DNA from: a virus
Length of the DNA: 64,000 nt
Direction: 5' to 3' (one strand)
Virus record (IMG/VR): IMGVR_UViG_3300029448_008324
Location: 1 to 64,000 of that record
Shown: one piece after another, positions 6,520-62,656 of the stretch
Position numbering within the stretch: the first letter of the stretch is position 1
How the letters are laid out: each line of letters starts with the position of its first letter
Program-made: the position numbers and the translations under genes
Notes under the pieces: model-generated
The model's input: only the letters and a program-made list of their open reading frames with translations
The model's database searches: none
What the model was told of the DNA's origin: nothing

Positions 6520-7565
6520 TATTGTGTCAGTTCTTGTTTGTATACAGCATTAAAGCCAAGTTGATTTTTGCCAAAATCTACCAAAGTTTGCAATGCGCCA
6601 GGAGTAATGAATGACTTGAGTGTTTGCACAGCTGCATCTCCTTCATCACCTGTTCTCCATTCATACTTGCCTACTTTCTTTTCAATAGCGGCAATAGATT
6701 CTGGATCTTGGATCATTTTGTTTAGTGCATCAACAAGTTTGTCCTTGTTTGGATTTCCTGCATTTACCCAAAATGCTTTTTGCAGTGCATCTCTCCAACT
6801 TTTTACAAGTTTGTATGCATCATAAAAATCGCCGCTGGGTGCAACACCATGCATTGATTCATACAGTGCTTCAAATGTTGGCTCTGTAAAATTAGGATCA
6901 ACATCATGTGCACCTGTGTCCACATTCAATAGTCCATGATGAAACCATGTGTATGCATCGCCTTTTTCAATCATAGGCACAACATGTTTTTTGTAGGCTG
7001 CTGGATTTTCTCTGGTTGCATTAAGATCTCCTCTAATAAATGCCAGTCTTCTTTCAGATCCTTTCATGCCTTTGACCCAAACAATTTTTTCTTCAAATGT
7101 TTCAATTGGATCACCATCTGGGCCTGCAAGTAACATCACAATGGCCATCACTTCTGGAGTCATTCCAGAACCTGATGAAAATTGTATTGGCCCGTTTTCA
7201 GTGTCCGCTTTGTTTCTTGCACCCACAATGATGTTGAGATTCATGTGTCCAATAGATTCCCAATCAAAATAATTGTAGTCCACTGGTTCAGTGAGATACG
7301 ATATTCCATTGCCACCATGCGATACCAGTATAGTTTTGTCATTAAATCTTAATTCATTTTGGAATTCATTTGGACCTAGTTGATCTCTAGCACCCGGCTT
7401 GTATGTCAAATTAATTTTTTCGCCAAGATGTTTTTCCCATTCTTGCACAACTATTTGTGCCCATACAGATGTTCCGCCTGATGGTTTTTGTGGCACGATC
7501 AAATTGTAATCTGCCAAAGCAGTTGTTGTCATCAACAACAATGCCATTATTGTTTTCTTAAGCAT
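6519..7565 (-). CDS. Tripartite tricarboxylate transporter, periplasmic binding protein TctC-like
   Basis: A 348-aa secreted protein. The first 18 residues form a classical signal peptide (basic start, LLLMTT core, ALA cleavage site). The mature part begins with an IVPQKPSGGTSV stretch, then LGEKINLTYKPGARDQLG, the ligand-loop pattern of the TctC/Bug family. These proteins capture organic acids in the periplasm and pass them to the TctA/TctB membrane unit. The gene overlaps the end of tctA by 8 nt, so the two are one operon. A secreted binding protein in a lytic-type phage is unusual. Ligand unknown. Confidence 0.75.
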   Translation of the reverse strand: MLKKTIMALLLMTTTALADYNLIVPQKPSGGTSVWAQIVVQEWEKHLGEKINLTYKPGARDQLGPNEFQNELRFNDKTILVSHGGNGISYLTEPVDYNYFDWESIGHMNLNIIVGARNKADTENGPIQFSSGSGMTPEVMAIVMLLAGPDGDPIETFEEKIVWVKGMKGSERRLAFIRGDLNATRENPAAYKKHVVPMIEKGDAYTWFHHGLLNVDTGAHDVDPNFTEPTFEALYESMHGVAPSGDFYDAYKLVKSWRDALQKAFWVNAGNPNKDKLVDALNKMIQDPESIAAIEKKVGKYEWRTGDEGDAAVQTLKSFITPGALQTLVDFGKNQLGFNAVYKQELTQ

Positions 7566-8994
7566 AGTTAAGTCTACTCCTTTTTTTAATTCCCCAATAC
7601 AGCAAAAACATCACACACATCATTATGACCAAAAAGATTGGTCTCGTGATGAGATCATTTACTGTGTGGAGAGTTGTTAATTGATAAGTGAGGCTATAAA
7701 TCCTATCACTCAACAAAAATCCTATCAGTAGTGCTGGCCTACTGACTTGATATTTTTTGCATGCCAATCCTAAAACTGAAAATGCAAACAAAACTGCAAG
7801 ATCTTCCCATCCCCCTGTGTATTGCAAGGTTGCCCACACAATCACAGCAAGCACAAAAGGAAAGTAATACACATAAGGAATGCGTGATACCCATCCTGCA
7901 AAATATGCCAGTCCATAACAAATGACAGCAGTGATCACAGTTCCTACAAGAAATGCAAATGACATGCTGTCAAATAATTTGTCATCATAAAATGTATCAG
8001 GCGATCCAAGATCAATGCCAAGATACAAAAACAATCCCATCAATATTGCGGCAAATGGAGCGCCTGGTATGCCAAACAACACAGTGGGAATAAACGAAGA
8101 TGCCTTCTGTGCATTGTTGGCGCCTTCTGCACCCACCACTCCACGCACATTACCTTCGCCAAACTTTTCTTTGGGATTAGCTGCTACTGTGGCTCCATAA
8201 GCCAACCAATCTGCCATGGCTCCTCCTAGTCCTGGCAATAATCCAATCACTGAACCAATGGCTCCGCCTCTAAGGCTGTCTTTCCAAAATTTTATAGTGT
8301 CTTTAATGCCTAGGATTAAGTCTTGCCAACTGCCATGATTAGTTTTGATGTTAGTGGTTTTATTCCTCTTGATCCAACCACTCCACAGTTCAGGTATAGC
8401 AAATAAACCTGCAACAAAAGGAAGGATCTGCACGCCATCTTCTAGATATCTCCAACCCATGGTAAATCTGGCCATAGCATTTGCATCTACCCCAACCAAT
8501 CCAACAACAACTCCTGTCACAATTGCAATTACACTTCGCACCCATTTATTAGTGGAAACAAATCCCACAGTAACAAATGCCAACAACACTAGTGCCCATA
8601 ATTCTGGAATACCCATATACATCACCACTTTAGTATACCATGGCAACAATAGGAATGTAAGTGATCCCCAAAACAATCCATTGCAGGTTGAGGATGTAAT
8701 TGCAGCTGATAGTGCCCGTGTGGCTTGTCCATTTTTGGCCATTGGAAATCCATCCACCATGGTTGCGGCCGCAGAGTTGGCTCCTGGTATGCCCAACAGC
8801 ACACCACTAAATGAATCACCGGTTGTAGATGAAGCCACCACTGCCACACAAAAAATCACACCAAGATAGGGGTCTCCTACAAAATAAGGCATGAATCCAA
8901 ACAGTGCGATAAGTCCAGTTGTTGCTCCTGCGGCGGGTATCAGGCCGATGATTAAGCCATACACAATACCTGCCAACAATATTGCAAGTTCCAT
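7558..8994 (-). CDS. Tripartite tricarboxylate transporter, large permease subunit TctA
   Basis: A 478-aa integral membrane protein with about 11-12 hydrophobic segments. It has the TctA hallmarks: GLIPAAGATTGLIAL near 17-31, LLGIPGANSAAATMVDG near 66-82, and the mirrored repeat GLLPGLGGAMADWLAYG near 250-266. Length is typical. TctA normally works with TctC and the small subunit TctB; no TctB-like gene lies next to it here. Its likely role is cation-coupled uptake of a carboxylate by the infected cell. The conserved repeats are intact, so it looks functional rather than decayed. Confidence 0.82.
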   Translation of the reverse strand: MELAILLAGIVYGLIIGLIPAAGATTGLIALFGFMPYFVGDPYLGVIFCVAVVASSTTGDSFSGVLLGIPGANSAAATMVDGFPMAKNGQATRALSAAITSSTCNGLFWGSLTFLLLPWYTKVVMYMGIPELWALVLLAFVTVGFVSTNKWVRSVIAIVTGVVVGLVGVDANAMARFTMGWRYLEDGVQILPFVAGLFAIPELWSGWIKRNKTTNIKTNHGSWQDLILGIKDTIKFWKDSLRGGAIGSVIGLLPGLGGAMADWLAYGATVAANPKEKFGEGNVRGVVGAEGANNAQKASSFIPTVLFGIPGAPFAAILMGLFLYLGIDLGSPDTFYDDKLFDSMSFAFLVGTVITAVICYGLAYFAGWVSRIPYVYYFPFVLAVIVWATLQYTGGWEDLAVLFAFSVLGLACKKYQVSRPALLIGFLLSDRIYSLTYQLTTLHTVNDLITRPIFLVIMMCVMFLLYWGIKKRSRLNYA

Positions 8995-16565: not shown

Positions 16566-18293
16566 ATGAGTTGGAAAAAATATTTTAATTTAGTAACACC
16601 CGATGGCACCATGTCCCCGGTGTCAGGTGCCAACACAGCATCCAATCCGATGAGTGCTGTGGGACGCAGAAACTACACATCCTATTTGCCAGAAGTCTAC
16701 ACAGGTCATCCCAACAGGATGGAGCGTTACTTTCAATATGATCAAATGGATCAAGATTCAGAAGTCAATGCCGCACTGGACATCATTGCTGAATTCTGCA
16801 CACAACCCAACAAGCAAACTGAAACTCCTTTTGACCTACGCTACAAAGACAAACCCACAGAATCAGAAGCACTCATCTTAAGAGATGCACTCAAACAGTT
16901 TTCCACCATCAACGAATGGAACCGCAGAGCATTCAGAATGTTCCGCAACACACTCAAGTATGGTGATTCATTTTTTATTCGTGATCCAGAAACACAAGAA
17001 CTAATTCATGTTGCCGCATCCAAATGTGACAAAGTGATTGTGAATGAATCACAAGGCAAGCGACCAGAACAGTATGTGTTCAGAGATCTAAACTTAAATT
17101 TAGAATCGCTCAGTGCATCACAGGTGGCAGCCAATGTGACATATTCATCACCAGGATCATCTGCTGTGGCCGATTCAAACTATGGCGGTGGTCAACGTGG
17201 CATGGGCGGCGGTGCTGGCTTTGGAGGATCATATGGACAACAAGGAGGCAGATTTGAAACCACAGTTAATCAATATGCCATTGATGCCAATCATGTGTGT
17301 CACATCAGTCTCAGTGAAGGACTTGATTCAAACTTTCCATTTGGCACATCCACATTAGAGACTGTGTTTAAAACTTTTAAACAAAAAGAATTACTAGAAG
17401 ATGCAATTATAATTTACAGAGTGCATCGTGCTCCTGAAAGAAGAGTGTTCTACATTGATGTAGGCAACATGCCCACACACATGGCCATGGGATTTGTGGA
17501 ACGTGTGAAAAATGAAATACACCAAAGACGTATTCCTTCCATATCAGGTGGATCCAATTCAATCGATGCCACATACAATCCACTGTCAATCAACGAAGAC
17601 TACTTCTTTCCACAGACAGCAGAAGGCAGAGGTTCAAAAGTTGAAACACTACCAGGTGGAACCAACCTTGGTGAGATTGATGATCTAAGATATTTCACAA
17701 ACAAATTGTATCGTGCATTGAGGATTCCAAGTTCTTACTTGCCCACTGGTCCAGATGATGGAGCCAATCCACAGTATTCAGACGGCAGAGTTGGCACAGC
17801 ATACATCCAAGAGTTGAGATTCAACAAATACTGTGAAAGACTGCAGGAAATTGTGGTGCCATCCATTGATGTTGAGTTTAAAGTGTTCTTAAAAAACAGA
17901 GGCATCAACATAGACACATCTCTGTTTGATTTAAAATTTAACACACCACAAAACTTTGCCGCATACAGACAGATTGAACTTGACAATCAGCGGGTGCAGG
18001 CATTCACACAGATTGAGCAAGTGCCATATCTATCAAAAAGATTTGCACTCAAGCGTTTCTTAGGCTTGTCAGAAGAAGAAATGGCACAGAATCAAAAGAT
18101 GTGGTCAGAAGAAAAAGGCGAAAGCAAAGACGATGCTGTGCAGGGTGCTGATCTTAGAAACGTTGGCGTCACTGGAGGAGGCATTGCAGCCGATCTTGAT
18201 GCTCAGACTGGAGAAGTAGAACCAGAAGGCGACATTGAAGCAGGTGAAGAAGGTGAAGGCATCGGCGGCGACGAGGGCGACGTTGAAGTGTGA
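16566..18293 (+). CDS. 20: Portal vertex protein gp20
   Basis: A 575-aa portal protein, near the T4 length of 524 aa. Recognisable segments are QDSEVNAALDIIAEFC near 60-75, FRNTLKYGDSFFIRDPE near 120-136, and DDLRYFTNKLYRALRIPSSYL near 368-388. A Gly-rich insertion lies around residues 205-225 and the C-terminus is very acidic. The dodecameric portal starts head assembly and forms the DNA channel and terminase docking site. The next gene starts in an overlapping GTGA. Confidence 0.93.
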   Translation: MSWKKYFNLVTPDGTMSPVSGANTASNPMSAVGRRNYTSYLPEVYTGHPNRMERYFQYDQMDQDSEVNAALDIIAEFCTQPNKQTETPFDLRYKDKPTESEALILRDALKQFSTINEWNRRAFRMFRNTLKYGDSFFIRDPETQELIHVAASKCDKVIVNESQGKRPEQYVFRDLNLNLESLSASQVAANVTYSSPGSSAVADSNYGGGQRGMGGGAGFGGSYGQQGGRFETTVNQYAIDANHVCHISLSEGLDSNFPFGTSTLETVFKTFKQKELLEDAIIIYRVHRAPERRVFYIDVGNMPTHMAMGFVERVKNEIHQRRIPSISGGSNSIDATYNPLSINEDYFFPQTAEGRGSKVETLPGGTNLGEIDDLRYFTNKLYRALRIPSSYLPTGPDDGANPQYSDGRVGTAYIQELRFNKYCERLQEIVVPSIDVEFKVFLKNRGINIDTSLFDLKFNTPQNFAAYRQIELDNQRVQAFTQIEQVPYLSKRFALKRFLGLSEEEMAQNQKMWSEEKGESKDDAVQGADLRNVGVTGGGIAADLDAQTGEVEPEGDIEAGEEGEGIGGDEGDVEV

Positions 18294-19237
18294 AGACGTG
18301 CTCAGTCTTTTGGAAGCACATAAACATTCGTGGAGACAACAGAATATTCCCATGTTGCCGTTTCAAAAAACCTGTTGCAACTTACACAGGTGATCTCGAT
18401 CACCTATTAACATCCAAAACATTCCAAGATCTCAGAAACACAGACGTCAGCACAATGCCAGAATGTGCCAAGTGCATGTATGAAGAAGACAACGGCATAA
18501 CCAGTTTTAGACAAAAATTCAATCAACAATTAGACACTGCCACAGTTGGATTAGAATACTTGGAAATTGGGTTTGACAACATTTGTAACCTTACCTGTGA
18601 TGGTTGTTACCCAGAATTCAGTTCAGCATGGAGTAAAAAATTAAATCCACACGCACACAAAAGCACACACTACACATCGATCAACGAAATCACAGCCATA
18701 CCTGACACAGTCAACAAGATCATGTTCCTTGGTGGCGAACCATTGATGACTTCACGCCATAAAAAAGTGCTGGAGATGATTGCTGATCCAAGCAAAGTCA
18801 AAATATCATACAACACCAATGCAACTTTCCTGCTTGATAATGATTTGATCAATATTCTAAAACAATTCAAGCATGTACACTTCATAGTGAGCATTGATGG
18901 ATACAAAGAACTCAATGAAAAGGTCAGAACAGGAACAAAATGGAGTGATGTTGAAGCATTTATCAAACAGATCCAAGAGAACGGATTTGAAATGAGTGTA
19001 AACAGTGTGATACACTTGAACAATTGGCAAGGAATGCCAGATCTTGAACGATTTGTGGAGACACTGGACCTCACAGCACCACACTACGGCACTGGACTAG
19101 CACCTTGGTACGTGAACATACTGACTTATCCTTTGCATCTTGATATCAGGAATGCAAAAAACAAACAAGAAATTGTTGATGTCATTGCAAAAACAGATAT
19201 CCCCAACAAAGAATATGTGCTCAATCACTTGTCCTAA
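18290..19237 (+). CDS. Twitch-domain radical SAM protein (copy A)
   Basis: A 315-aa radical SAM protein starting with GTG that overlaps the gp20 stop. The 4Fe-4S motif is CNLTCDGC (C99, C103, C106). An N-terminal FPCC (C22, C23) and a CAKC pair (C59, C62) look like an auxiliary twitch cluster placed before the SAM domain. IMFLGGEPL and FIVSIDG segments continue the barrel. Architecture matches the radical SAM gene at 59328. It splits the conserved gp20-gp21 head block, so it is a late-expressed insertion. Substrate unknown; peptide or sugar modification is plausible. Confidence 0.8.
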   Translation: MKTCSVFWKHINIRGDNRIFPCCRFKKPVATYTGDLDHLLTSKTFQDLRNTDVSTMPECAKCMYEEDNGITSFRQKFNQQLDTATVGLEYLEIGFDNICNLTCDGCYPEFSSAWSKKLNPHAHKSTHYTSINEITAIPDTVNKIMFLGGEPLMTSRHKKVLEMIADPSKVKISYNTNATFLLDNDLINILKQFKHVHFIVSIDGYKELNEKVRTGTKWSDVEAFIKQIQENGFEMSVNSVIHLNNWQGMPDLERFVETLDLTAPHYGTGLAPWYVNILTYPLHLDIRNAKNKQEIVDVIAKTDIPNKEYVLNHLS

Positions 19238-51402: not shown

Positions 51403-51854
51403 ATTGGTTCTCAATAGTTACACAAGATGTCACTAAAATTGCAGATGCAATTGCATACTACGAAAAAGAACTTAATTCAGCATCCATAGAAGTTAAACTA
51501 CACGGAAATCTTGAAAAACAATCAGCATCTATGCCTGGTGTTGTAGAAGCACGTTTTAGACAACTGCAAGAAATCGAAGGCATACTCAAACACCTTGAAA
51601 TACAAGCACGTAGACTCAAAACAAAACACTACAAAAAATATCTAGAAAACTATCAAAGAGCACTAACATCTCGCGATGCAGAAAAGTATGCAGAAGGTGA
51701 AGATGAAGTGTGTGACTATGAAGCCATTGTGAATGAATGGGCACTGCTCCGCAACAAGTGGCTGGGTGTGATCAAAGCACTGGATCAAAAACAATGGCAC
51801 ATCACCAACATAGTAAAACTTAGAGTTGCTGGCATGGAAGATGCCAATCTCTAG
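51399..51854 (+). CDS. uvsY: Recombination mediator UvsY
   Basis: A 151-aa helical protein right after uvsX. The LTSRDAEKYAEGEDEVCDYEAIVNEWALLRNKWLGVIKAL stretch (about 89-128) and the C-terminal KQWHITNIVKLRVAGMEDA match marine-phage UvsY; T4 UvsY has 137 aa. It loads UvsX on gp32-coated ssDNA. ATGA overlap with the upstream gene; its 3' end overlaps the convergent radical SAM gene by 4 nt. Confidence 0.78.
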   Translation: MNWFSIVTQDVTKIADAIAYYEKELNSASIEVKLHGNLEKQSASMPGVVEARFRQLQEIEGILKHLEIQARRLKTKHYKKYLENYQRALTSRDAEKYAEGEDEVCDYEAIVNEWALLRNKWLGVIKALDQKQWHITNIVKLRVAGMEDANL

Positions 51855-53857
51855 GCAATAAGTTTTTGTTTTAATTCTTGTTGTAGACTTTCATCTTTTA
51901 ATTCTTCCCATATCACACTTGGAATAAATTGAACCTTTTTAAGTCCTAGAGTCAAATTATACACATCTTCTTTGGGCCATTTGAACTGCCAAATGCTTTT
52001 GTAATACTTTTCATCTTGATTAAAAGCAACATCGTCAAAATTGTAACTGATAATTTTGTTCATTCTTTGTTTGTGGCCAGTATCAAAATTCATAATTTTG
52101 GCTCTTTGCCATCTAAACAAATCTTTGATGTTAGGATCTTTTTGGACATTAATAAGACTGTGGAAGATGTTGCTAAAGATTGTCATAAAATCGTCTGGAC
52201 TTGCATGAAATCTGTATTGACTTACTCTCCTTGGATTGATAGGATATGTGCCTGTGTTGTCATAGCGTTGATACAATTTGTTTTTACCTGTCAGCCAATG
52301 CACATACAACTCAAGATCTAATCTAAAACTGTCAGGTAAGTTTTTCCAATTGGATGGATGGAATTGACGTGTGTAAGCTTTGATGAATTCGTGACTGCTG
52401 ACGCCATGATGATTTTCAAGATAATTTATTGGAGTCCTCATCCAACCCAAAAAGCCATATGTGTGACACATCATAGTCCAGTGATACCAAGATGCAGCTA
52501 ATTCTTCAGTGGTCAATGTTTCTGTTTCTATCATATGGTTGAATGTGATTTGTGCTGAGTCACCTGGTTGATCCAATAATGATCTTGAATAATGCCTTTC
52601 TGATCTGATGTAATTTTTGTTGCTTTTGAATTGATATGTGTTGCCAGGACTGGTCAGCACTGTGTTTGGAAATATCAGATACCAAAAAGGTAAAAAATGA
52701 GACAGTAAATCGTTTTTTTGAAGTTCATGCAAACTGTCTGTGAGTGTGTTATATGATTGACCAGGCATACCAAGGATGATTTCAATTTGCCCTGTTTTGT
52801 GTTCATCATTTTTTGTGAATGCTTGGAATGCTTTGATTTTTTCATATTCTTTATTGAATGGACGACCGTTCATCTTTACAATTTCAGGATTAGGATCTTG
52901 CAGAGTAATTTTGCCATAATTTCCAGCTTCGTCGTCATCATATATGCCACTGTCTTCCATCTTTTGCATCAAGTATGTGGTGAATTCAACTTGATTTTTT
53001 GCCAATGGTGGTTTTCTAAATGACAACTTGCCTTGTGCATTTTCAATGACATAATCTAGTATGTCTTCATATTCTGGCACTATCCCAAAATTTGCATCAG
53101 CAAATTCATACACACAATTGTTGTATTCTGCTAGTAGATCAATTTCTTTGTAGAGTTTTGTGATGTCACGTTTGTGAATTTTAGTCCACAAACTTGTGCC
53201 CTGTTCACAAAAACTACAACTGTAAGGACAGCCTTGTATGTACATGGTCAGAAAGACAACTTTGTTGTAGTCTTTGGTGTATTGATCCAACAGCGTTCTA
53301 ACTTCATCATTGAAATTGGTGACATAGTCAAGCACCAAAGGATCTTCACTGCGTGGCACGGGACTGTTACGCACACAACTATGACCGTTCCAATGATTAA
53401 CACCTGCCACCTTTGTGATGTTGCCGCCCACTAAATGGGTGTCTACAATAAGCCTAAATGTTTCAGCAGCTGGGCCTGGGACAACAGCATCAATGTAATG
53501 GTGTTCACGCATCCAAGCTTCTCTTGTGTCAGCGTTAGGGCCTCCTGCCACAATGATGCATTTGGGAAAATTTTGTTTGATCCATTCAGCATTTTCTAAC
53601 AACACAGATTCGTTCCACAGATATAAACTGAACCCAACTATGTCAGGTGGTGTGTTGAATAATTGCTGTTGTAGTGCAGGATTGTCCTTGATAGGAGTTG
53701 GATCATCGCTGAAACTCCAATCTTTAATTTTTGCGAAATTGCCAGGACTACGTTGAAAGTAATAATCTTTCAACCAAAAATAAATCAATGGAAAGCGTTT
53801 TTCAGCACCTTTTGTAGTGATGTCAGTGTGATAAATGGTGTTGATAAAGATGTTCAT
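51851..53857 (-). CDS. B12-binding-domain radical SAM protein (copy B)
   Basis: A 668-aa protein. Residues 60-145 form a cobalamin-binding-like Rossmann domain (PDIVGFSLYLWNE, IIVAGGPNAD, DAVVPGPAAETF) but lack the DxHxxG cobalt ligand. The radical SAM motif is CPYSCSFC (C210, C214, C217), followed by YEFADANFGIVPEYEDIL and GMPGQSYNTLTDSL strands. The long C-terminal region of about 280 residues matches nothing I know. Family members methylate or rearrange lipids, antibiotics, hopanoids or peptides. A perfect late box lies upstream. Substrate unknown. Confidence 0.82.
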   Translation of the reverse strand: MNIFINTIYHTDITTKGAEKRFPLIYFWLKDYYFQRSPGNFAKIKDWSFSDDPTPIKDNPALQQQLFNTPPDIVGFSLYLWNESVLLENAEWIKQNFPKCIIVAGGPNADTREAWMREHHYIDAVVPGPAAETFRLIVDTHLVGGNITKVAGVNHWNGHSCVRNSPVPRSEDPLVLDYVTNFNDEVRTLLDQYTKDYNKVVFLTMYIQGCPYSCSFCEQGTSLWTKIHKRDITKLYKEIDLLAEYNNCVYEFADANFGIVPEYEDILDYVIENAQGKLSFRKPPLAKNQVEFTTYLMQKMEDSGIYDDDEAGNYGKITLQDPNPEIVKMNGRPFNKEYEKIKAFQAFTKNDEHKTGQIEIILGMPGQSYNTLTDSLHELQKNDLLSHFLPFWYLIFPNTVLTSPGNTYQFKSNKNYIRSERHYSRSLLDQPGDSAQITFNHMIETETLTTEELAASWYHWTMMCHTYGFLGWMRTPINYLENHHGVSSHEFIKAYTRQFHPSNWKNLPDSFRLDLELYVHWLTGKNKLYQRYDNTGTYPINPRRVSQYRFHASPDDFMTIFSNIFHSLINVQKDPNIKDLFRWQRAKIMNFDTGHKQRMNKIISYNFDDVAFNQDEKYYKSIWQFKWPKEDVYNLTLGLKKVQFIPSVIWEELKDESLQQELKQKLIA

Positions 53858-55200: not shown

Positions 55201-56496
55201 ATGTTAGAAAAACTGTTTGGCCTATCAAAGGCCGGCACTTCTGTGAAAACGGAAATCATGGCTGGTGTGGCCACATTCTTAACAATGGCATACATCACTG
55301 TGGTTAACCCGGCTATACTTTCAACAGAAGGTACCGGCATGGCATTTGGAGCTGTGTTTACAGCAACAATCATTGCCGCTGTGATAGGTACATTAATCAT
55401 GGGACTGTGGGCCAAGTGGCCTGTGGCTCTCGCACCCGGCATGGGACTCAATGCATTTTTTACATTTGGTGTAATTTTTGGCATGGGGTACACATACAGT
55501 CAGGCGTTGGCAGCTGTGTTTGTGGCAGGACTTGTGTTCTTGTTACTTTCAGTGACGCCAGCAAGACGTTATATTATTAATTCAATTCCGCGTTCAATGA
55601 AACTTGGCATTGGTGCAGGAATTGGTTTGTTCCTTGCAATCATCGGCTTTAAGAATGCCGGCATTGTAGTAGACAATCCAGCCACCCTTGTAGGTTTAGG
55701 TGATATTTCATCATGGCCTGTATTGTTGGCAGGTCTTGGATTTGCAATAATGGCAATCCTTGACAAACGCAAAATACCTGGTGCAATCATCATTGGTATC
55801 CTAGCAACAAGTATTATTGCTTGGGTGTTTGGTGTTGCAGATATATCTGGAGTGGTAGGAGCAATCCCGTCACCAACACATGCTTTCTCACTTGACTTTT
55901 CATTGTTAGCAACAGCAGGCTTCATAGGCACTGCATTTGCATTCTTGTTTGTTGACTTTTTTGACACAGCAGGGACATTAACTTCTGTGGCAAATCTCAC
56001 AGGCAAAGTTAATAAAAAAACAGGAGAAGTTGAAGGCATAGACAAGGCATTACTGGCTGATTCAACTGCGACAACTGTTGGTGCATTGATGGGAACATCA
56101 AACACAACATCATATATTGAATCAGGTGCAGGTATTAAAGAAGGCGGAAAAACAGGACTGACTGCGGTAACAGTGGCAGTGCTGTTCTTAGCATGTCTTA
56201 TTTTTGCTCCATTGGCACAAAGCATACCTGCTTTTGCTACTGGTCCTGCTTTGGTGTTTATTGCCACATACTTCCTTAGAAATCTCAAAGATATCGACTG
56301 GGAAGATGTATCAGAATATGCTCCGGCGGTGTTGGCGGCAATCATCATGCCATTAACATTTTCCATTGCATATGGTATTGCACTTGGTTTTATTGCTTAT
56401 GTGTTGATCAAAGCACTGAGTGGTAGAACATCAGATCTAAACGGTGGCTCATTGGCCATTGCGGCGGTAAGTGTTTTATACTTTGTAGCGGTATAA
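55201..56496 (+). CDS. AzgA-type purine (adenine/guanine/hypoxanthine) permease
   Basis: A 431-aa membrane protein with about 12-14 hydrophobic segments. It matches the AzgA branch of nucleobase permeases: EIMAGVATFLTMAYITVVNPAIL near 18-40, WPVALAPGMGLNAFFTFGV near 72-90, FLFVDFFDTAGTLTSVA near 250-266, and GTSNTTSYIESGAGIKEGGKTGLTA near 299-323, the substrate-site loop. Length is typical of the family. Own host-type promoter, own ribosome site and own terminator make it an independent early unit. It should raise uptake of purine bases for phage DNA synthesis. Confidence 0.88.
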   Translation: MLEKLFGLSKAGTSVKTEIMAGVATFLTMAYITVVNPAILSTEGTGMAFGAVFTATIIAAVIGTLIMGLWAKWPVALAPGMGLNAFFTFGVIFGMGYTYSQALAAVFVAGLVFLLLSVTPARRYIINSIPRSMKLGIGAGIGLFLAIIGFKNAGIVVDNPATLVGLGDISSWPVLLAGLGFAIMAILDKRKIPGAIIIGILATSIIAWVFGVADISGVVGAIPSPTHAFSLDFSLLATAGFIGTAFAFLFVDFFDTAGTLTSVANLTGKVNKKTGEVEGIDKALLADSTATTVGALMGTSNTTSYIESGAGIKEGGKTGLTAVTVAVLFLACLIFAPLAQSIPAFATGPALVFIATYFLRNLKDIDWEDVSEYAPAVLAAIIMPLTFSIAYGIALGFIAYVLIKALSGRTSDLNGGSLAIAAVSVLYFVAV

Positions 56497-56541: not shown

Positions 56542-57444
56542 ATGCTCAATCCTACATCATGGCACATAGAACCAACATCAAGATGCACACTTGAATGTCC
56601 TGGTTGCGATCGAACATGGTATAGGAACACATTTGGCAAACAGATCATCCAAGATATTGATGTTGCGGCATTAACCAATTTTTTCTCTGTGAATAACTTT
56701 TTAGGTTCACAAATTAGATTGTGTGGCAACAACGGGGATCCCATCTATCATCCAAAATTTATCAGTTTGCTTGAGTCACTCAAATCACAAAATCACAGTG
56801 TGAGAATACACACAAACGCCTCAGCAAAAACTGATCGATTTTGGCAACAAGTTTGTGATTGTTTAGACCACAAAGATCAAATTGTTTTTGCAATTGATGG
56901 ACTTCAAGATACCAATCACTTGTATAGAAAAAATTCAAACTGGCAACAAATCATGATGGCAGTCAACACTGTGGTGGGATGTGGCATTAACACAGAATGG
57001 CAATTTATTGTGTTCAAACAAAATCAACATCAAATCCAACAAGCACAAACATTATCTAAACAGTTGGGTATCAACAATTTTAGAGTGCATAAATCTCATC
57101 GATGGATTGACGACAGTCTTGATCAATATATGCCTGACAAAGAATACGTTGAAGAAATATATTTTGATCATCAGGAGATAGTTGATGGTGTTGTGTCCAA
57201 AGGCACCATGGAACCCATGTGTGGTATGAATAGAGAAACATTCATTGATTCTAATGGTAATATTTTTCCATGCTGTTGGACAGCAACATATCGATTTCAA
57301 TACAAACATGCCTTTGGAAAACAGCCAATCAACATTGCAATGGGCAAATACCAACTGCCTGAGGCACACTCAGATTATATTGAAAGCACTAAAACGTGGC
57401 AAACAGCACAATTAGTATGTAGGTTGCATTGTGCAAAAAATTAA
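56542..57444 (+). CDS. Radical SAM protein with SPASM-like C-terminus (copy C)
   Basis: A 300-aa radical SAM protein. Motif CTLECPGC (C15, C19, C22), RLCGNNGDPIYHPKF, and IVFAIDGLQDTNHLYRKN near 110-127 follow the barrel. The C-terminus has MCGMNRETFIDSNGNIFPCCW plus a final CRLHC, a SPASM-like auxiliary cluster region. It shares long segments with copy E (DGL.DTNH.YR.N, FIVF..NQHQ), so the two are paralogues. A 23-codon peptide ORF follows after 15 nt. SPASM enzymes often modify peptides. Confidence 0.82.
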   Translation: MLNPTSWHIEPTSRCTLECPGCDRTWYRNTFGKQIIQDIDVAALTNFFSVNNFLGSQIRLCGNNGDPIYHPKFISLLESLKSQNHSVRIHTNASAKTDRFWQQVCDCLDHKDQIVFAIDGLQDTNHLYRKNSNWQQIMMAVNTVVGCGINTEWQFIVFKQNQHQIQQAQTLSKQLGINNFRVHKSHRWIDDSLDQYMPDKEYVEEIYFDHQEIVDGVVSKGTMEPMCGMNRETFIDSNGNIFPCCWTATYRFQYKHAFGKQPINIAMGKYQLPEAHSDYIESTKTWQTAQLVCRLHCAKN

Positions 57445-57533: not shown

Positions 57534-57609
<76 letters not shown>

Positions 57610-57611
57610 TT

Positions 57612-57687
57612 GGGGGATTAGCTCAGTTGGGAGAGCGCCTCGTTTGCAACGAGGAGGTCGCAGGTTCGACCCCTGTATCCTCCACCA
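57612..57687 (+). tRNA. tRNA-Ala (anticodon TGC)
   Basis: Acceptor GGGGGAT / ATCCTCC, anticodon stem CCTCG / CGAGG with loop TTTGCAA, a T arm with TTCGACC-type loop, encoded CCA at 57685-57687. Two nt behind tRNA-Thr. Confidence 0.92.
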
Positions 57688-57699
57688 AAAGGAGATAAA

Positions 57700-57909
57700 A
57701 TGGAAAAAACTATAATTAATGCCTTAAAAAAACATGCTGAAGGTCAAATTGCCAAGCACAGAGTCAACGTAGAAATCTACATGCAAAATGCTGTTGGTGT
57801 AGGAGAACACACTGACATATTAGAAAGCATAGAGAAGGAACTTAATTCAATAGGTAAGTATGAAGAACAAATTGAGGTTTTGAAAAAACACTTTTCTAAT
57901 GAAGATTAA
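57700..57909 (+). CDS. Small conserved protein of marine T4-like phages (69 aa)
   Basis: Helical 69-aa protein (TIINALKKHAEGQIAKHRVNVEIYMQN, then GVGEHTDILESIEKELNSIGKYEEQIEVLKKHFS). I recall near-identical short proteins in cyanophages and related marine myoviruses, all without known function. AAGGAG before its ATG; its end overlaps the ferredoxin start by 11 nt, so the two are coupled. Confidence 0.7.
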   Translation: MEKTIINALKKHAEGQIAKHRVNVEIYMQNAVGVGEHTDILESIEKELNSIGKYEEQIEVLKKHFSNED

Positions 57910-58213
57910 AGTCATAGACAGAAGTGGCAACGGTTCTGAAATCCCCGCTGAAGTTGGAATGTCTATCGAATCTGCAATCACACAGGCAGGCGTAGAAGAC
58001 AGTTTCGGCATATGCGGGGGTGCTTGTGCTTGTGCATCTTGTCAAGTGTATGTTGCCAAAGAAGACTATGACAAATTGACAGCACCAGATGAAGGAGAAA
58101 CTGCTGTGTTGGAAGACATGGCATATGAACTGCAACCAACATCAAGACTCAGTTGTCAAATGGAAGTGACTCCAAATATGGAAGGCATGACTTTTACCAT
58201 TGCTCCATATTAA
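57899..58213 (+). CDS. 2Fe-2S ferredoxin, adrenodoxin type
   Basis: A 104-aa ferredoxin with cluster ligands C39, C45, C48 and C86 (CGGACACASC and RLSCQ), the Cx5Cx2C...C spacing of adrenodoxin/FdxB-type rather than plant-type proteins. LTAPDEGETAVLEDM precedes the last Cys as in that family. It opens a tight operon with an AsnB-like enzyme (2-nt gap) and a radical SAM protein, and may deliver the electrons the radical SAM enzymes need. That link is inference from context. Confidence 0.9.
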   Translation: MKIKVIDRSGNGSEIPAEVGMSIESAITQAGVEDSFGICGGACACASCQVYVAKEDYDKLTAPDEGETAVLEDMAYELQPTSRLSCQMEVTPNMEGMTFTIAPY

Positions 58214-58215
58214 GC

Positions 58216-59331
58216 ATGTTTTTTTCTTTATCACAAAAACAAGAGCATAATTTTCCTTTTCATTATGAATTGCCTAACGGTCTTGTGCTGAGCACAGATG
58301 ACGGCTGGCGTGTATTCAACATCAAAAATTTTAAAATAATATTCAAAGGCTATGCCAACAATTTACCTTGTCATAAACTAGTAGAGCAATTGCTGGATAA
58401 TACCCAACCGCATGCAAAAGGTAATTTTTGTGCATTTATTTCAGACTCCAACAGCACAAGATTGTTGCATGACACAGACAGAAGTTTTCCATTATGGGTC
58501 AATCAAAATACAATAACAAATCTACAACATTTAGATGAACAGATATGGGCCGACTGTGTGTTGACTGTAGACAACCATTTTAAAATTACAAAAGATCATT
58601 ATAATTGTTATGCCAAAAATACTAACAACTTTTCAGATGACAAAATAGTGGATCAAATACATCATACTATTCTTGAAACATACGAACAGTTTTTAACACA
58701 CAATACTAAACCATTAAAAATATTTTTAACTGGCGGGTTGGACACCATAACCAGTTGGGCATATCTTGATCACTTTACAAAAAACTATGAGATTGTTGAT
58801 TATGAATATATGAAGTATACAGATTTTTATAAAAAAAATTCAACATTAGTAAGAAAACATTGGGGCTATCTACAAATACATCTGTGGGATCAAGATTGTG
58901 TGTTAGTGTCTGGCGCTAATGGCGATGAAAATTTTTTAAGAGGCCCTTACACACTCGCAATGATGTTGAAAAAACATGGCATCGAATTTAAAGACATATT
59001 ACAAAAAGATGACTATCATTACACTTACTTGATCAAAAAAGATATCAGCAACAATGTAAACGATTGGTATGCACAGACTAATGATGTAGTAGATTGGATT
59101 TTAAATAGGAATATTAATGATCATCAACATTGGCATCTTGATAATACTATTACATTCACTCCATTCAAAGACATCAGTATACTTGCGTCCGTTTTAACCT
59201 TGGGCAAGGATATGTTAATCAAACAAGCTAGACGTGGTGAAGTTAATAGGCAACTGATTACAAAATTAGATGCCAACAAATTGGTGAAAATTAGTAAACA
59301 AAAGAACTATAATCCTATGGAGCATGTATGA
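58216..59331 (+). CDS. Asparagine-synthetase-like (PP-loop) enzyme without glutaminase Cys
   Basis: 371 aa from ATG 58216. The C-terminal half has the ATP-pyrophosphatase loop FLTGGLDTITSW (172-177 core) and the downstream SGANGDENFLRGPY motif of the AsnB superfamily. The N-terminal part looks like the degenerate amidohydrolase domain (AKGNFCAFISDSNSTRLLHDTDRSFPLW) but the protein starts MFF, so the catalytic Cys2 is absent. That is the state of lasso-peptide cyclases and beta-lactam synthetases, which adenylate a carboxylate and form an amide. The ATGA overlap with the next radical SAM gene implies joint function. Confidence 0.72.
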   Translation: MFFSLSQKQEHNFPFHYELPNGLVLSTDDGWRVFNIKNFKIIFKGYANNLPCHKLVEQLLDNTQPHAKGNFCAFISDSNSTRLLHDTDRSFPLWVNQNTITNLQHLDEQIWADCVLTVDNHFKITKDHYNCYAKNTNNFSDDKIVDQIHHTILETYEQFLTHNTKPLKIFLTGGLDTITSWAYLDHFTKNYEIVDYEYMKYTDFYKKNSTLVRKHWGYLQIHLWDQDCVLVSGANGDENFLRGPYTLAMMLKKHGIEFKDILQKDDYHYTYLIKKDISNNVNDWYAQTNDVVDWILNRNINDHQHWHLDNTITFTPFKDISILASVLTLGKDMLIKQARRGEVNRQLITKLDANKLVKISKQKNYNPMEHV

Positions 59332-60443
59332 AGTGTAAATTTTTAGAACATGGTGTTGTGCTCCAATATGAAAAATCAGTTAAGCCTTGTTGTGTATGGA
59401 AGACCGATGATTGGCATCATCCTATAGCAAACACTGACTTAACCAAATGGTTTGATTTGCCACAACTAGAGCAAGCAAGAAATAAACTAGCACAAGGCAT
59501 TTGGCCAAAAAATTGTTCTAAATGCGAACGACAAGAATCATCAGGCAGAGGCGACAGCATGAGGTTAAATGGTAAAAGTGCATATGGTGATTATAGCAAT
59601 GATGAAATTACACTAGAAATAAGACCAGGTAATACTTGTAATTTTTCCTGTCAAAGTTGTTGGCCTGAAGCAAGTAGTCGTGTGGCAAGTCATCATCGAC
59701 AAGCATTTGGGATTGGAAATGTTGTTAGTGAACGTTATACTGATTACAGCATTTTAGACTCTGTTGCTCATCGCATCCGAGACATTGTGGTGTTGGGCGG
59801 TGAACCGTTTTATGACAAAAGTTGTTTGAAGTTTTTTGAATGGCTACAAGAAAAAAATTTAGACGCAGGTTTACTAGTTTTTACAAATGCAAGTATGATC
59901 GACTTTGACTTTGTCGAATCATATCAAGGAAAACTGACCATGCATGTAAGTTTGGATGCATTTGGGCGAGTGGCTGAATACGTCAGACAAGGCACAGAAT
60001 GGGACACTGTAAAAAGAAATTATGACAGATTAATGGACACACCCAACGTGGATGTTAGGGTAAACATCACAGCAAGTGTTTACAACTATCCTTTTATATC
60101 AGAACTTGTTGAATGGCTGGCACAGGATTGGCCTGGCATTGTAACTTTTGGCACAGCGTTCCAGCCATATCTACAAGAATCTGTTGTGCCCAAACACCTT
60201 GTAGAAAAAATTGCCCAAGACCTTGAACGCACAACAAAAATCATATGGCAATCAAAGATTCCAGAGCATCAACAACACAATGCATCAAATGCCTTGCAAG
60301 ACATTGCCAACAAACTGCTGACCAAAGAGTTTGATGCCACACTGCATGACCAATTTGTCAATCATTGCACAAAGTTGGATGAGGTTAAGAATTTGTATGG
60401 TGAAGATTATGATGAATATTTTGCACGGGTAAAAATAAAATGA
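59328..60443 (+). CDS. Twitch-domain radical SAM protein (copy D)
   Basis: A 371-aa radical SAM protein. Motif CNFSCQSC is C104, C108, C111. The N-terminal auxiliary region has C21-C22 (KPCCVW) and C63/C66 (CSKC), the same layout as copy A. IVVLGGEPFYD and MHVSLDAFG continue the barrel. ATGA overlaps at both ends tie it to the AsnB-like gene and to a small membrane protein. It probably acts on a substrate activated by the AsnB-like partner, with ferredoxin as reductant; this is inferred. Confidence 0.82.
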   Translation: MKCKFLEHGVVLQYEKSVKPCCVWKTDDWHHPIANTDLTKWFDLPQLEQARNKLAQGIWPKNCSKCERQESSGRGDSMRLNGKSAYGDYSNDEITLEIRPGNTCNFSCQSCWPEASSRVASHHRQAFGIGNVVSERYTDYSILDSVAHRIRDIVVLGGEPFYDKSCLKFFEWLQEKNLDAGLLVFTNASMIDFDFVESYQGKLTMHVSLDAFGRVAEYVRQGTEWDTVKRNYDRLMDTPNVDVRVNITASVYNYPFISELVEWLAQDWPGIVTFGTAFQPYLQESVVPKHLVEKIAQDLERTTKIIWQSKIPEHQQHNASNALQDIANKLLTKEFDATLHDQFVNHCTKLDEVKNLYGEDYDEYFARVKIK

Positions 60444-60718
60444 ACGCAATAGCAAAATTTTGGAAGGAGTCTTACACTTCTAATCCATTGGCATTTTACA
60501 TCGAGGCAGTATCAGCTGTGTCTGTGATCATTGGATCAGCAATCCTAACATACACAGTGTTAGACCCAAGACCTGATATATTTGTGCCTTTTTACTTTGT
60601 GGGCAGTTCAACAGGACTATGGGGTGCTGTGCTTAGAAAAACAGCATGGATTGTTGTATTGACTGCTTGGTTTACAACTATGAACACAATTGCACTGTAT
60701 CAATTGTTTTTAACTTAG
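60440..60718 (+). CDS. Small integral membrane protein (92 aa)
   Basis: About three transmembrane helices (VSVIIGSAILTYTVL, IFVPFYFVGSSTGLWGAVL, AWIVVLTAWFTTMNTIALYQLF). ATGA overlap with radical SAM copy D. The stop codon's last base is the first base of the tRNA-Ser gene. It might export or anchor a product of the operon. No family recognised. Confidence 0.6.
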   Translation: MNAIAKFWKESYTSNPLAFYIEAVSAVSVIIGSAILTYTVLDPRPDIFVPFYFVGSSTGLWGAVLRKTAWIVVLTAWFTTMNTIALYQLFLT

Positions 60719-60807
60719 GAGGGATGGCAGAGTGGTTGATTGCACTGGTCTTGAAAACCAGCATAGGCGCAAGTCTATCGAGAGTTCGAATCTCTCTCCC
60801 TCCGCCA
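60718..60807 (+). tRNA. tRNA-Ser (anticodon TGA)
   Basis: Class II tRNA of 90 nt: acceptor GGAGGGA / TCCCTCC, anticodon loop CTTGAAA with stem CTGGT / ACCAG, a long variable arm, T loop TTCGAAT, encoded CCA at 60805-60807. Reads UCA/UCG. Confidence 0.9.
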
Positions 60808-61083: not shown

Positions 61084-61111
61084 ACGGGTTCGATTCCCGT
61101 AGGGGATGCCA
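61084..61111 (+). other. Orphan tRNA 3' fragment (T arm, acceptor strand and CCA)
   Basis: ACGGG-TTCGATT-CCCGT forms a perfect T arm, followed by AGGGGAT, discriminator G and CCA. No matching 5' half (an ATCCCCT start, D arm, anticodon arm) exists upstream; the 87-aa gene is there instead. It looks like a tRNA remnant or a copy of a host tRNA end, as used for attachment sites. Confidence 0.6.
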
Positions 61112-61119
61112 AATTTAAT

Positions 61120-61132: not shown

Positions 61133-61663
61133 GTGAAAATCCATACTGTTACTGATATATCGCAACTGGCAGATCACAACATTCATGTGTTTGATCCGTT
61201 GTTGTTCAAAGATTCAAGAGGACAAATAACTGTGAGAGCTGAAGACACCATTTCTAAAGATTTTCCTTACAGCAATTACTTTTCTTACAAATTATCCACT
61301 TCAGAAGCTGGTGTAGCAAGGGGCTTACATTGGCAACGCACAACCACTCCAATCATCAAATACATAGATCTACGCAAAGGCAGTCTTTACACAGTGCTTG
61401 TTGATACACGTACTGAAGAAGGAATAATTTTCAAATGGACCTCAGATATTGGCAAAATAATTAAAGTGTCTGAACATCATGCACATGGATTTTACTGCAC
61501 ACAAGATACAGAATTCAGTTATATCTGCAAGGGCAAATACGATCCTCAAGAAGAAACAACATTCAATGTATTTCCATCTATTTGCAGACAAATAAAATTG
61601 CCCGAACCATTGCTTTCACACAAAGATGCTGGTTATCCAGAAATTGAAGTTCAACTAAGATAG
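61133..61663 (+). CDS. RmlC-like sugar 3,5-epimerase (cupin)
   Basis: 176 aa from GTG 61133; I prefer it to ATG 61106, which lies inside the tRNA fragment. Motifs of dTDP-4-dehydrorhamnose 3,5-epimerases are present: GVARGLHWQ (His base region), SLYTVLVDTRT, EHHAHGFYCTQD and YICKGKYDP. The family makes activated deoxysugars for surface polysaccharides. Its end overlaps the convergent radical SAM copy E by 9 nt. With a GT8-like protein nearby it hints at glycan alteration; the exact sugar is unknown. Confidence 0.78.
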   Translation: MKIHTVTDISQLADHNIHVFDPLLFKDSRGQITVRAEDTISKDFPYSNYFSYKLSTSEAGVARGLHWQRTTTPIIKYIDLRKGSLYTVLVDTRTEEGIIFKWTSDIGKIIKVSEHHAHGFYCTQDTEFSYICKGKYDPQEETTFNVFPSICRQIKLPEPLLSHKDAGYPEIEVQLR

Positions 61664-62656
61664 ATACTTGCCGCAATAATGCACGCACTTAGGCATTGGT
61701 TTGTGTTTGAGACTTTGAGGCAGTGTATCAACATAGAACTGGCTATTAAATATTTCCTCCACATTGTGATAGTTCAAATTGATTGATCTTGCACCTCCTT
61801 TTTTCAACAAATGAAAAAGATTTTTAGTGTTAAAAGTGTTGTTCCACCAATCTTGACTAAGCATACAGCAAGGAATAATGTTGCCATCATAGTCCATGTA
61901 TACTTCATTGTTTTCATGTTTTGGACACGTGATAGGAAGTTTTAATTTTTTTCCTTTGTCAGATATGTCCTGTGATAAATTTGTGTGATCGCTTTCAAGT
62001 TTTTCACCTGCTTGTTCCAACACCACAGTGGATGGTTTCAAATCAAACTTGTAGACACCTTTGTTATAAACCGGCCAAGAACTGCCATGATACCAACTGC
62101 GATCACTTTGCACAGGCCAAAACTTTTCAAACCCCATCTGTTGCGACAGTGTTCTAACTTGATCAAGTTGATGCTGATTATGTTCAAACACAATAAATTT
62201 CCATGTGGCCCGTCCACCTGCAGAAATGAATGCTTGGGCATTTGCCATTATCTTATCGAAATTCGTGTTTTGTCTATACATGTGATTTGTGTCTTTTAAT
62301 CCGTCTACACTGAAAACCATAGAGAAATTTTTAAGGCCTGCAAGTGATTCAAAAAATTTAGGATTCCTTACACTTGCATTGGTAAAAAAAGTTACATTTT
62401 CTACCCATTCAAATGATCGTGCAATTTCCAATGCATCTGGATGATTGAGCACGTCACCTGTGTCACCTTCAAATATCACTTCTTTGAGATTGGGCATTGT
62501 GTCTTGGTTAATTTTTTTCATCACATCCAATGACAAATGTTTGGGTCTGACAATCACATTATTTTTTTCATCAAAACGATTGCATTGAGGACAACGAGCA
62601 TTGCAAAAACTGGTCACTTCGATTGTAATAATTTCGATTGTTTTAGCATCATACAT
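61655..62656 (-). CDS. Radical SAM protein with SPASM-like C-terminus (copy E)
   Basis: A 333-aa radical SAM protein. Motif CNARCPQC (C18, C22, C25), VIFEGDTGDVLNHPD, and FSVDGLKDTNHMYRQN near 115-130. The C-terminal Cys set ITCPKHENNEVYMDYDGNIIPCCM plus CVHYC suggests an auxiliary cluster. Strong similarity to copy C, including the FIVFEHNQHQLDQ segment, but encoded on the other strand. A TATAAT-like box lies 6 nt upstream of the ATG. Substrate unknown. Confidence 0.8.
   Translation of the reverse strand: MYDAKTIEIITIEVTSFCNARCPQCNRFDEKNNVIVRPKHLSLDVMKKINQDTMPNLKEVIFEGDTGDVLNHPDALEIARSFEWVENVTFFTNASVRNPKFFESLAGLKNFSMVFSVDGLKDTNHMYRQNTNFDKIMANAQAFISAGGRATWKFIVFEHNQHQLDQVRTLSQQMGFEKFWPVQSDRSWYHGSSWPVYNKGVYKFDLKPSTVVLEQAGEKLESDHTNLSQDISDKGKKLKLPITCPKHENNEVYMDYDGNIIPCCMLSQDWWNNTFNTKNLFHLLKKGGARSINLNYHNVEEIFNSQFYVDTLPQSLKHKPMPKCVHYCGKYLS

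Follow-up and report, generated by a model that had tools for sequence, protein, structure and literature searches.

An AsnB-like protein family nearly confined to uncultured viruses and its recurrent gene neighbour, a twitch radical SAM protein

Phage genomes carry borrowed metabolic genes, and the parts of the locus described here belong to known superfamilies. Among the closest described systems, the beta-lactam and carbapenam synthetases are relatives of AsnB that lack its glutaminase Cys and form amides without ammonia. The window analysed here is the first 64 kb (64,000 nucleotides) of IMG/VR virus record IMGVR_UViG_3300029448_008324, which has 108,411 bases and derives from a phage that is T4-like by its portal, sheath, terminase and UvsX genes. 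At positions 57700-60718 it carries a run of five genes, which includes a gene for an AsnB-like amide synthetase without the glutaminase Cys (371 aa; 58216..59331, + strand; assigned by predicted fold and family motifs) and, directly behind it, a gene for a radical S-adenosylmethionine (radical SAM) protein with an N-terminal twitch, called D (371 aa; 59328..60443, + strand). Only these two of the five genes make up a conserved module, and the AsnB-like branch and its radical SAM partnership appear to be new. We tentatively favour, at somewhat less than even chance, the reading that a glutaminase-dead, AMP-forming amide synthetase and a radical SAM enzyme form a two-enzyme tailoring module for a carboxylated substrate.

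The AsnB-like protein of the window had no match in Pfam, PHROGs or NCBIfam (TIGR01536 included), and searching the PDB sequences with the single protein, and also with a family profile, returned nothing relevant. A weak PF00733 match was seen in 9 of 33 relatives scanned singly (best E 2e-4), and the PHROG matches of relatives were marginal. The family was collected by degenerate-pattern scans of viral contigs, which gave 24 loci and then 96, of which 80 were kept; after merging these with the loci fetched through D there were 68 distinct sequences, and the motif counts rest on 65 full-length members. There was no relative among 50,697 GenBank phage records (tblastn). A first pattern scan of bacterial genomes gave none and a second, with a wider alignment, gave one; the bacterial relatives are two, in genomes of one bacterial order. 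As judged from these searches, this is an undescribed family that is nearly restricted to uncultured viruses and is missed or marginally matched by family libraries. The literature covered, which included few subscription journals, described neither the branch nor its near-restriction to uncultured viruses nor its partnership with a radical SAM protein.

The AlphaFold model of the AsnB-like protein, made with a 33-row alignment (pLDDT, predicted local distance difference test, 94), matched known structures over its whole length (residues 1-369, both domains; VIA Z 16-20.5) and contains both the class II amidotransferase fold and the PP-loop synthetase domain. The VIA Z was 20.5 for the hydroxyamidotransferase TsnB9, 19.3 for E. 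coli AsnB, 19.1 for beta-lactam synthetase and 17.3 for carbapenam synthetase. The protein begins with (M/L)FF in 65/65 full-length members, leaving no glutaminase Cys nucleophile, and any Cys within the first 12 residues was present in a single member. Because the Met-Phe-Phe start is conserved in relatives, the start was placed at ATG 58216 and not at that of a longer TTG open reading frame (ORF). The ATP loop SGG-D[ST] and the GDE motif are kept, with G173, G174, D176, G236, D237 and E238 in all 65 members; R242, D302, Q304, H305, H307 and the C-terminal Lys, K363, are likewise invariant, and D-x-Q-H-x-H is a distinct invariant motif of the family. At the position that corresponds, by motif alignment, to what we take to be Glu348 of E. 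coli AsnB, every member has Ala, Gly, Ser, Thr or Cys and never Glu. The conserved ATP motifs, the absent Cys and the small residue at the Glu348 position suggest that the family has apparently retained the adenylation machinery, has lost the glutaminase and has an acyl-substrate pocket different from that of AsnB. Our confidence in this predicted enzyme class is fairly high.

The same genome encodes a true AsnB at 64723-66441 (TIGR01536 276.5 bits, cut-off 267.1), and a profile comparison between the AsnB-like family and this protein aligned the ATP loop alone. A second asparagine synthetase role is therefore unlikely for the AsnB-like protein, and a plain AsnB with a missed N-terminus, which would have undone the first-pass annotation of this stretch, is ruled out by the conserved start, the fold and the separate true AsnB. 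Alternatively, the AsnB-like protein could make asparagine from free ammonia, which its kept ATP-binding residues would in principle allow, or serve as an inactive regulator. However, the loss of Glu at the Glu348 position, the invariant D-x-Q-H-x-H motif, the true AsnB and purifying selection on the gene make this the least probable of the explanations considered. In comparison with the sibling phage L004, the ferredoxin gene upstream, the AsnB-like gene and the D gene all have a dN (nonsynonymous divergence) of 0.11-0.22 and a dS (synonymous divergence) of 0.8-2.2, with dN/dS of about 0.1 for each of the latter two; such low dN against high dS shows that the genes are real and not chance ORFs, and supports a function.

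D scored 198.9 bits against NF033640 (N-terminal twitch, N_Twi_rSAM; cut-off 170). In an 18-row alignment its CxxxCxxC motif (Cys104-x3-Cys108-x2-Cys111) was invariant and its N-terminal auxiliary-cluster Cys residues (Cys3, 21, 22, 63 and 66) were conserved. The structure model (pLDDT 82) resembled BlsE, SkfB and MoaA about equally (Z 10.6-11.1, with BlsE at 11.1 and SkfB at 10.8; gaps below 1 are ties), and these near-equal values mean that the fold of D names no substrate. The window also holds four further radical SAM genes, at 51851-53857 (-), 56542-57444, 61655-62656 (-) and 18290-19237, among which one is B12-binding, two are SPASM-like and one is an NF033640 member (201 bits). Another twitch radical SAM lies beyond the window (L098:18759-19715; 180.6 bits, cut-off 170), and large phage records (G020, G005 and others) have up to 19 twitch radical SAM profile matches per record.

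The partnership between the two genes, in which our confidence is fairly high, was visible when relatives were fetched by D alone. This returned 24 contigs (42-80% identity), and an AsnB-like gene touches D in 23 of them, the exception being L035, whose contig stops at D. The relatives of D form a set with high scores that goes together with the AsnB-like gene, and the link that the first-pass annotation had drawn between the AsnB-like protein and the radical SAM protein recurs in many phages. Among 17 distinct full pairs that were measured, 4 are in tandem with a 4-nt overlap and 13 are convergent and share 9 to 86 nt at their 3' ends; L004, whose contig is cut inside D, adds a tandem pair. 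As the genes touch in both arrangements, their adjacency has outlasted a rearrangement, and the pair occurs in two genomic contexts. The protein distances of AsnB-like and D correlate (r 0.76; 0/5000 permutations as high), a correlation that shared phage ancestry alone would also give. A radical SAM partner is kept across very different phages. When viewed from the AsnB-like side, D adjoins 21 of the 68 genes (20 and the truncated L004), and for a further 11 a different twitch radical SAM gene lies no more than three genes away; the tested partners of this kind match NF033640 too, with L014 below the cut-off. Twitch radical SAM is the commonest neighbour family (33/68 loci), followed by ClpP (25 loci; confirmed as ClpP for L006) and by what we take, from recognising the sequence and not from a family scan, to be a gp32-like single-strand-binding protein (15 loci). 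ClpP stands directly before the AsnB-like gene at L006:10337-10924 (-) and 22 other loci; in a large clade the ClpP end meets or overlaps the AsnB-like start, and a second ClpP-like gene is often found two genes upstream.

Two accessory genes that share insertion points, and that look like an operon because of compact packing, could give a similar picture. On the AsnB-like tree the orientation changes once and D presence changes about 14 times, which fits a loose association and also an old pair that has frequently lost D; the small protein and the membrane protein of the same run are, in addition, unrelated common genes. We consider a loose association decidedly unlikely, as complete D relatives all touch the AsnB-like gene, in two contexts and two orientations.

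Under the tailoring-module reading, the AsnB-like protein would use ATP to convert the carboxylate of a substrate into an acyl-AMP, as suggested by the fold and the conserved ATP and Mg residues. With the glutaminase Cys lost, the amine to which the activated carboxylate is then joined would be one other than ammonia from glutamine. D, whose gene adjacency shows the partnership, would act by radical chemistry on that molecule or on a precursor of it, before or after the amide step. The substrate class could be a carboxylated sugar or another surface-glycan building block, which is the likeliest class, although our confidence in a glycan target is low. That an almost exclusively viral, glutaminase-dead AsnB branch with a substrate pocket of its own and a dedicated twitch radical SAM act as a two-enzyme pathway, producing an amide while large uncultured phages infect their hosts, is, in our estimate, only just short of an even chance, and viruses with the pair probably build or decorate some host-cell molecule. 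If the amide is formed on a sugar or metabolite, this could be a virus-owned natural-product or glycan chemistry.

Glycan genes are found near the AsnB-like gene in some genomes. In a Bacteriovoracaceae relative (L177/L276; gene names by reading the sequences, not from family scans) the AsnB-like gene lies in a polysaccharide-like cluster and is accompanied by two radical SAMs, glycosyltransferases, an epimerase, a UDP-galactopyranose-mutase-like gene, an aminotransferase-like gene and a second AsnB-like protein. The latter (541 aa by reading; L177:2304-3929, -) has no Pfam match and weak relatives within the same bacterial family. The neighbours in L177 look chromosomal, and a portal search of its genome was matchless, as was its control. 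The window phage has glycan-type (sugar) genes from about 61 kb onward; its true AsnB (L098:723-2441) heads a run of sugar-nucleotide and glycosyltransferase-like genes, named by reading, that extends to about L098:17200 (record 64.7-81 kb). Of 27 genomes with the AsnB-like gene, 20 have a nucleotide-sugar dehydrogenase, and of 24 other genomes 6 do, an enrichment that is suggestive.

Several observations weigh against the tailoring module and its glycan target. Within three genes of the AsnB-like gene, 36 of the 68 loci have no radical SAM, although a part of these contigs stop nearby, and in the 117-kb L011 record nothing matches the D profile; the AsnB-like enzyme is therefore not always dependent on one. 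The second bacterial relative, L275, is without an adjacent radical SAM. Most phages place the AsnB-like gene beside gp32-like or ClpP genes and not beside glycan genes. The contrast in nucleotide-sugar dehydrogenases is confounded, because the compared genomes differ in size and kinship; among those above 80 kb it is 17/22 versus 4/11 (p 0.05).

The product could instead be neither glycan nor ribosomal peptide but a small molecule that diffuses, or a cofactor; an inhibitor made from a nucleoside or an amino acid and affecting the host or a competing phage would be one example. In L115 and L120 several radical SAM genes surround the AsnB-like gene, which directly follows a gene of the nucleoside-phosphorylase family, and L120 additionally has an S-adenosylmethionine synthetase; this arrangement also speaks for the tailoring module. 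The best fold match of D was to BlsE, from the blasticidin S pathway, and AsnB relatives of a similar type include the beta-lactam and carbapenam synthetases. However, most copies are without a larger conserved biosynthetic cluster, and the fold likeness, tied as it is with others, gives no substrate. We regard a small molecule as unlikely, but as the strongest of the alternatives.

Another alternative is the maturation of a ribosomally synthesised and post-translationally modified peptide (RiPP), in which the AsnB-like protein would form a lactam or amide on a phage or host peptide, in the manner of lasso peptides or of AS-like peptide amidation, and the radical SAM would cross-link it. RiPP pathways employ both AsnB relatives that lack the Cys and radical SAMs of the twitch/SPASM kind, and the model of D resembles SkfB about as well as BlsE. 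AS-like enzymes have also been described to amidate, and even nitrilate, peptides (PMC13060819). Against this, neither context showed a conserved small gene next to the pair at the 68 loci, although a distant or very short precursor could escape, and in L007, L008, L011 and L030 the gap to the gp32-like gene is no more than about 80-140 nt. Among the conserved neighbour clusters no precursor or protease gene was seen, where very short genes could be missed, and the lasso cyclase models NF033535 and NF033561 were unmatched by the AsnB-like protein. A RiPP is somewhat less likely than a small molecule.

The first-pass annotation had seen in the gene order a suggestion of electron supply, carboxylate activation, radical chemistry and export, and its interpretation is partly supported. 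Every ORF and junction of the run was confirmed: an 11-nt overlap between small protein and ferredoxin, a 2-nt gap before the AsnB-like gene, and 4-nt ATGA overlaps between AsnB-like and D and between D and the membrane protein. Four of the genes are in the same order in L004, and beyond this sibling the order breaks down and only AsnB-like and D stay together, so that a five-gene conserved pathway was rejected, and electron supply and export as parts of such a pathway are not supported. The small protein (69 aa; 57700..57909, +; phrog_1811, E 5e-30) occurs in 162 GenBank phages, mostly cyanophages and pelagiphages, and is probably outside the module. The membrane protein (92 aa, hydrophobic; 60440..60718, +) has 112 relatives confirmed in viral contigs, and there was no AsnB-like gene within 4 kb of any of the best 80; it is a widespread viral gene and probably lies outside the module. 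It had been taken for a three-helix protein, which is unsupported by a simple hydropathy scan that gave one clear hydrophobic segment.

The assignment of the second gene as an adrenodoxin/putidaredoxin-type [2Fe-2S] ferredoxin (104 aa; 57899..58213, +) was borne out by its pattern, Cys39-x5-Cys45-x2-Cys48...Cys86, and by a PDB match to putidaredoxin (E 4.6e-19). It was found in the window phage and L004 only, with no match in GenBank phages, and is a lineage-specific neighbour that possibly donates electrons to D. Lipoyl synthase is a radical SAM enzyme. As the adrenodoxin-type FDX1 is reported to be required for lipoylation in human cells (PMC10470009), electron donation by such a ferredoxin is possible, and in the window lineage it could reduce the radical SAM cluster of D. 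The phage has a second ferredoxin of proteobacterial FdxA type (L099:3451-3777, record ~87451-87777; 143.6 bits, cut-off 135) and a full-length SufB Fe-S assembly protein (L099:16430-17887, record ~100430-101887; 890.7 bits, cut-off 717), the latter fitting with the several Fe-S enzymes of the same phage.

The run is flanked by genes for tRNA-Thr (TGT; 57534..57609, +) and tRNA-Ala (TGC; 57612..57687, +) upstream and for tRNA-Ser (TGA; 60718..60807, +), which starts at the stop of the membrane-protein gene, all called by ARAGORN and Rfam. From this position, and from a tRNA-Thr at the same place in L004, modification of tRNA or other nucleic acid could be proposed; however, tRNA genes were found at just 2 of 41 other scanned AsnB-like loci (L012 and L143), kilobases away, and we consider this role very improbable. 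The stretch at 61084-61112 resembles a tRNA 3' end (T-arm and acceptor) alone and was uncalled by ARAGORN and Rfam. Two of the 41 scanned loci have a tmRNA (transfer-messenger RNA) gene, permuted (beta-type) and near the AsnB-like/D pair (L044:4582-4989, -; L046:2354-2795, -); both have the same predicted tag and match Rfam RF04321 (120.5 and 101 bits, cut-off 47). Elsewhere in the window, 55201-56496 encodes a Xanthine/uracil permease family protein (PF00860, E 2.5e-51; 98% identical in L004), which PHROGs files under the 'tail protein' family phrog_27398, and 7558-8994 (-) is a TctA tricarboxylate transporter-family gene (PF01970, E 1.4e-92).

We found no described phage system with this set of genes, in line with the first-pass annotation. 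Like AsnB (PF00733; TIGR01536), the phage protein has the two-domain fold, the SGG-D ATP loop, GDE and the C-terminal Lys; unlike AsnB, it is shorter, lacks the glutaminase Cys, as had been noticed from the sequence, and has its own D-x-Q-H-x-H pocket motif. The suggested likeness to beta-lactam synthetases holds at the level of fold, with an identity of only about 14% to the beta-lactam and carbapenam synthetases. The position that we presume to be that of the Tyr in their catalytic Tyr-Glu dyad is Ala, Gly, Ser, Thr or Cys in the AsnB-like family (by motif alignment). The other analogy drawn, to lasso peptide cyclases, stands for an AsnB-like and glutaminase-inactive protein, but not for a match to their models. 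The AS-like peptide amidating and nitrile synthetases (PesC, TsrC, AsnO) share ATP-dependent carboxylate adenylation by an AsnB-type protein, whereas PesC is proposed to use glutamine-derived ammonia (PMC13060819) and the phage family is without the glutaminase Cys. D, in turn, scores above the curated cut-off of NF033640 and differs in that its set is tied to the AsnB-like gene, so that this large subfamily, for which no function was found, gains its first testable partner.

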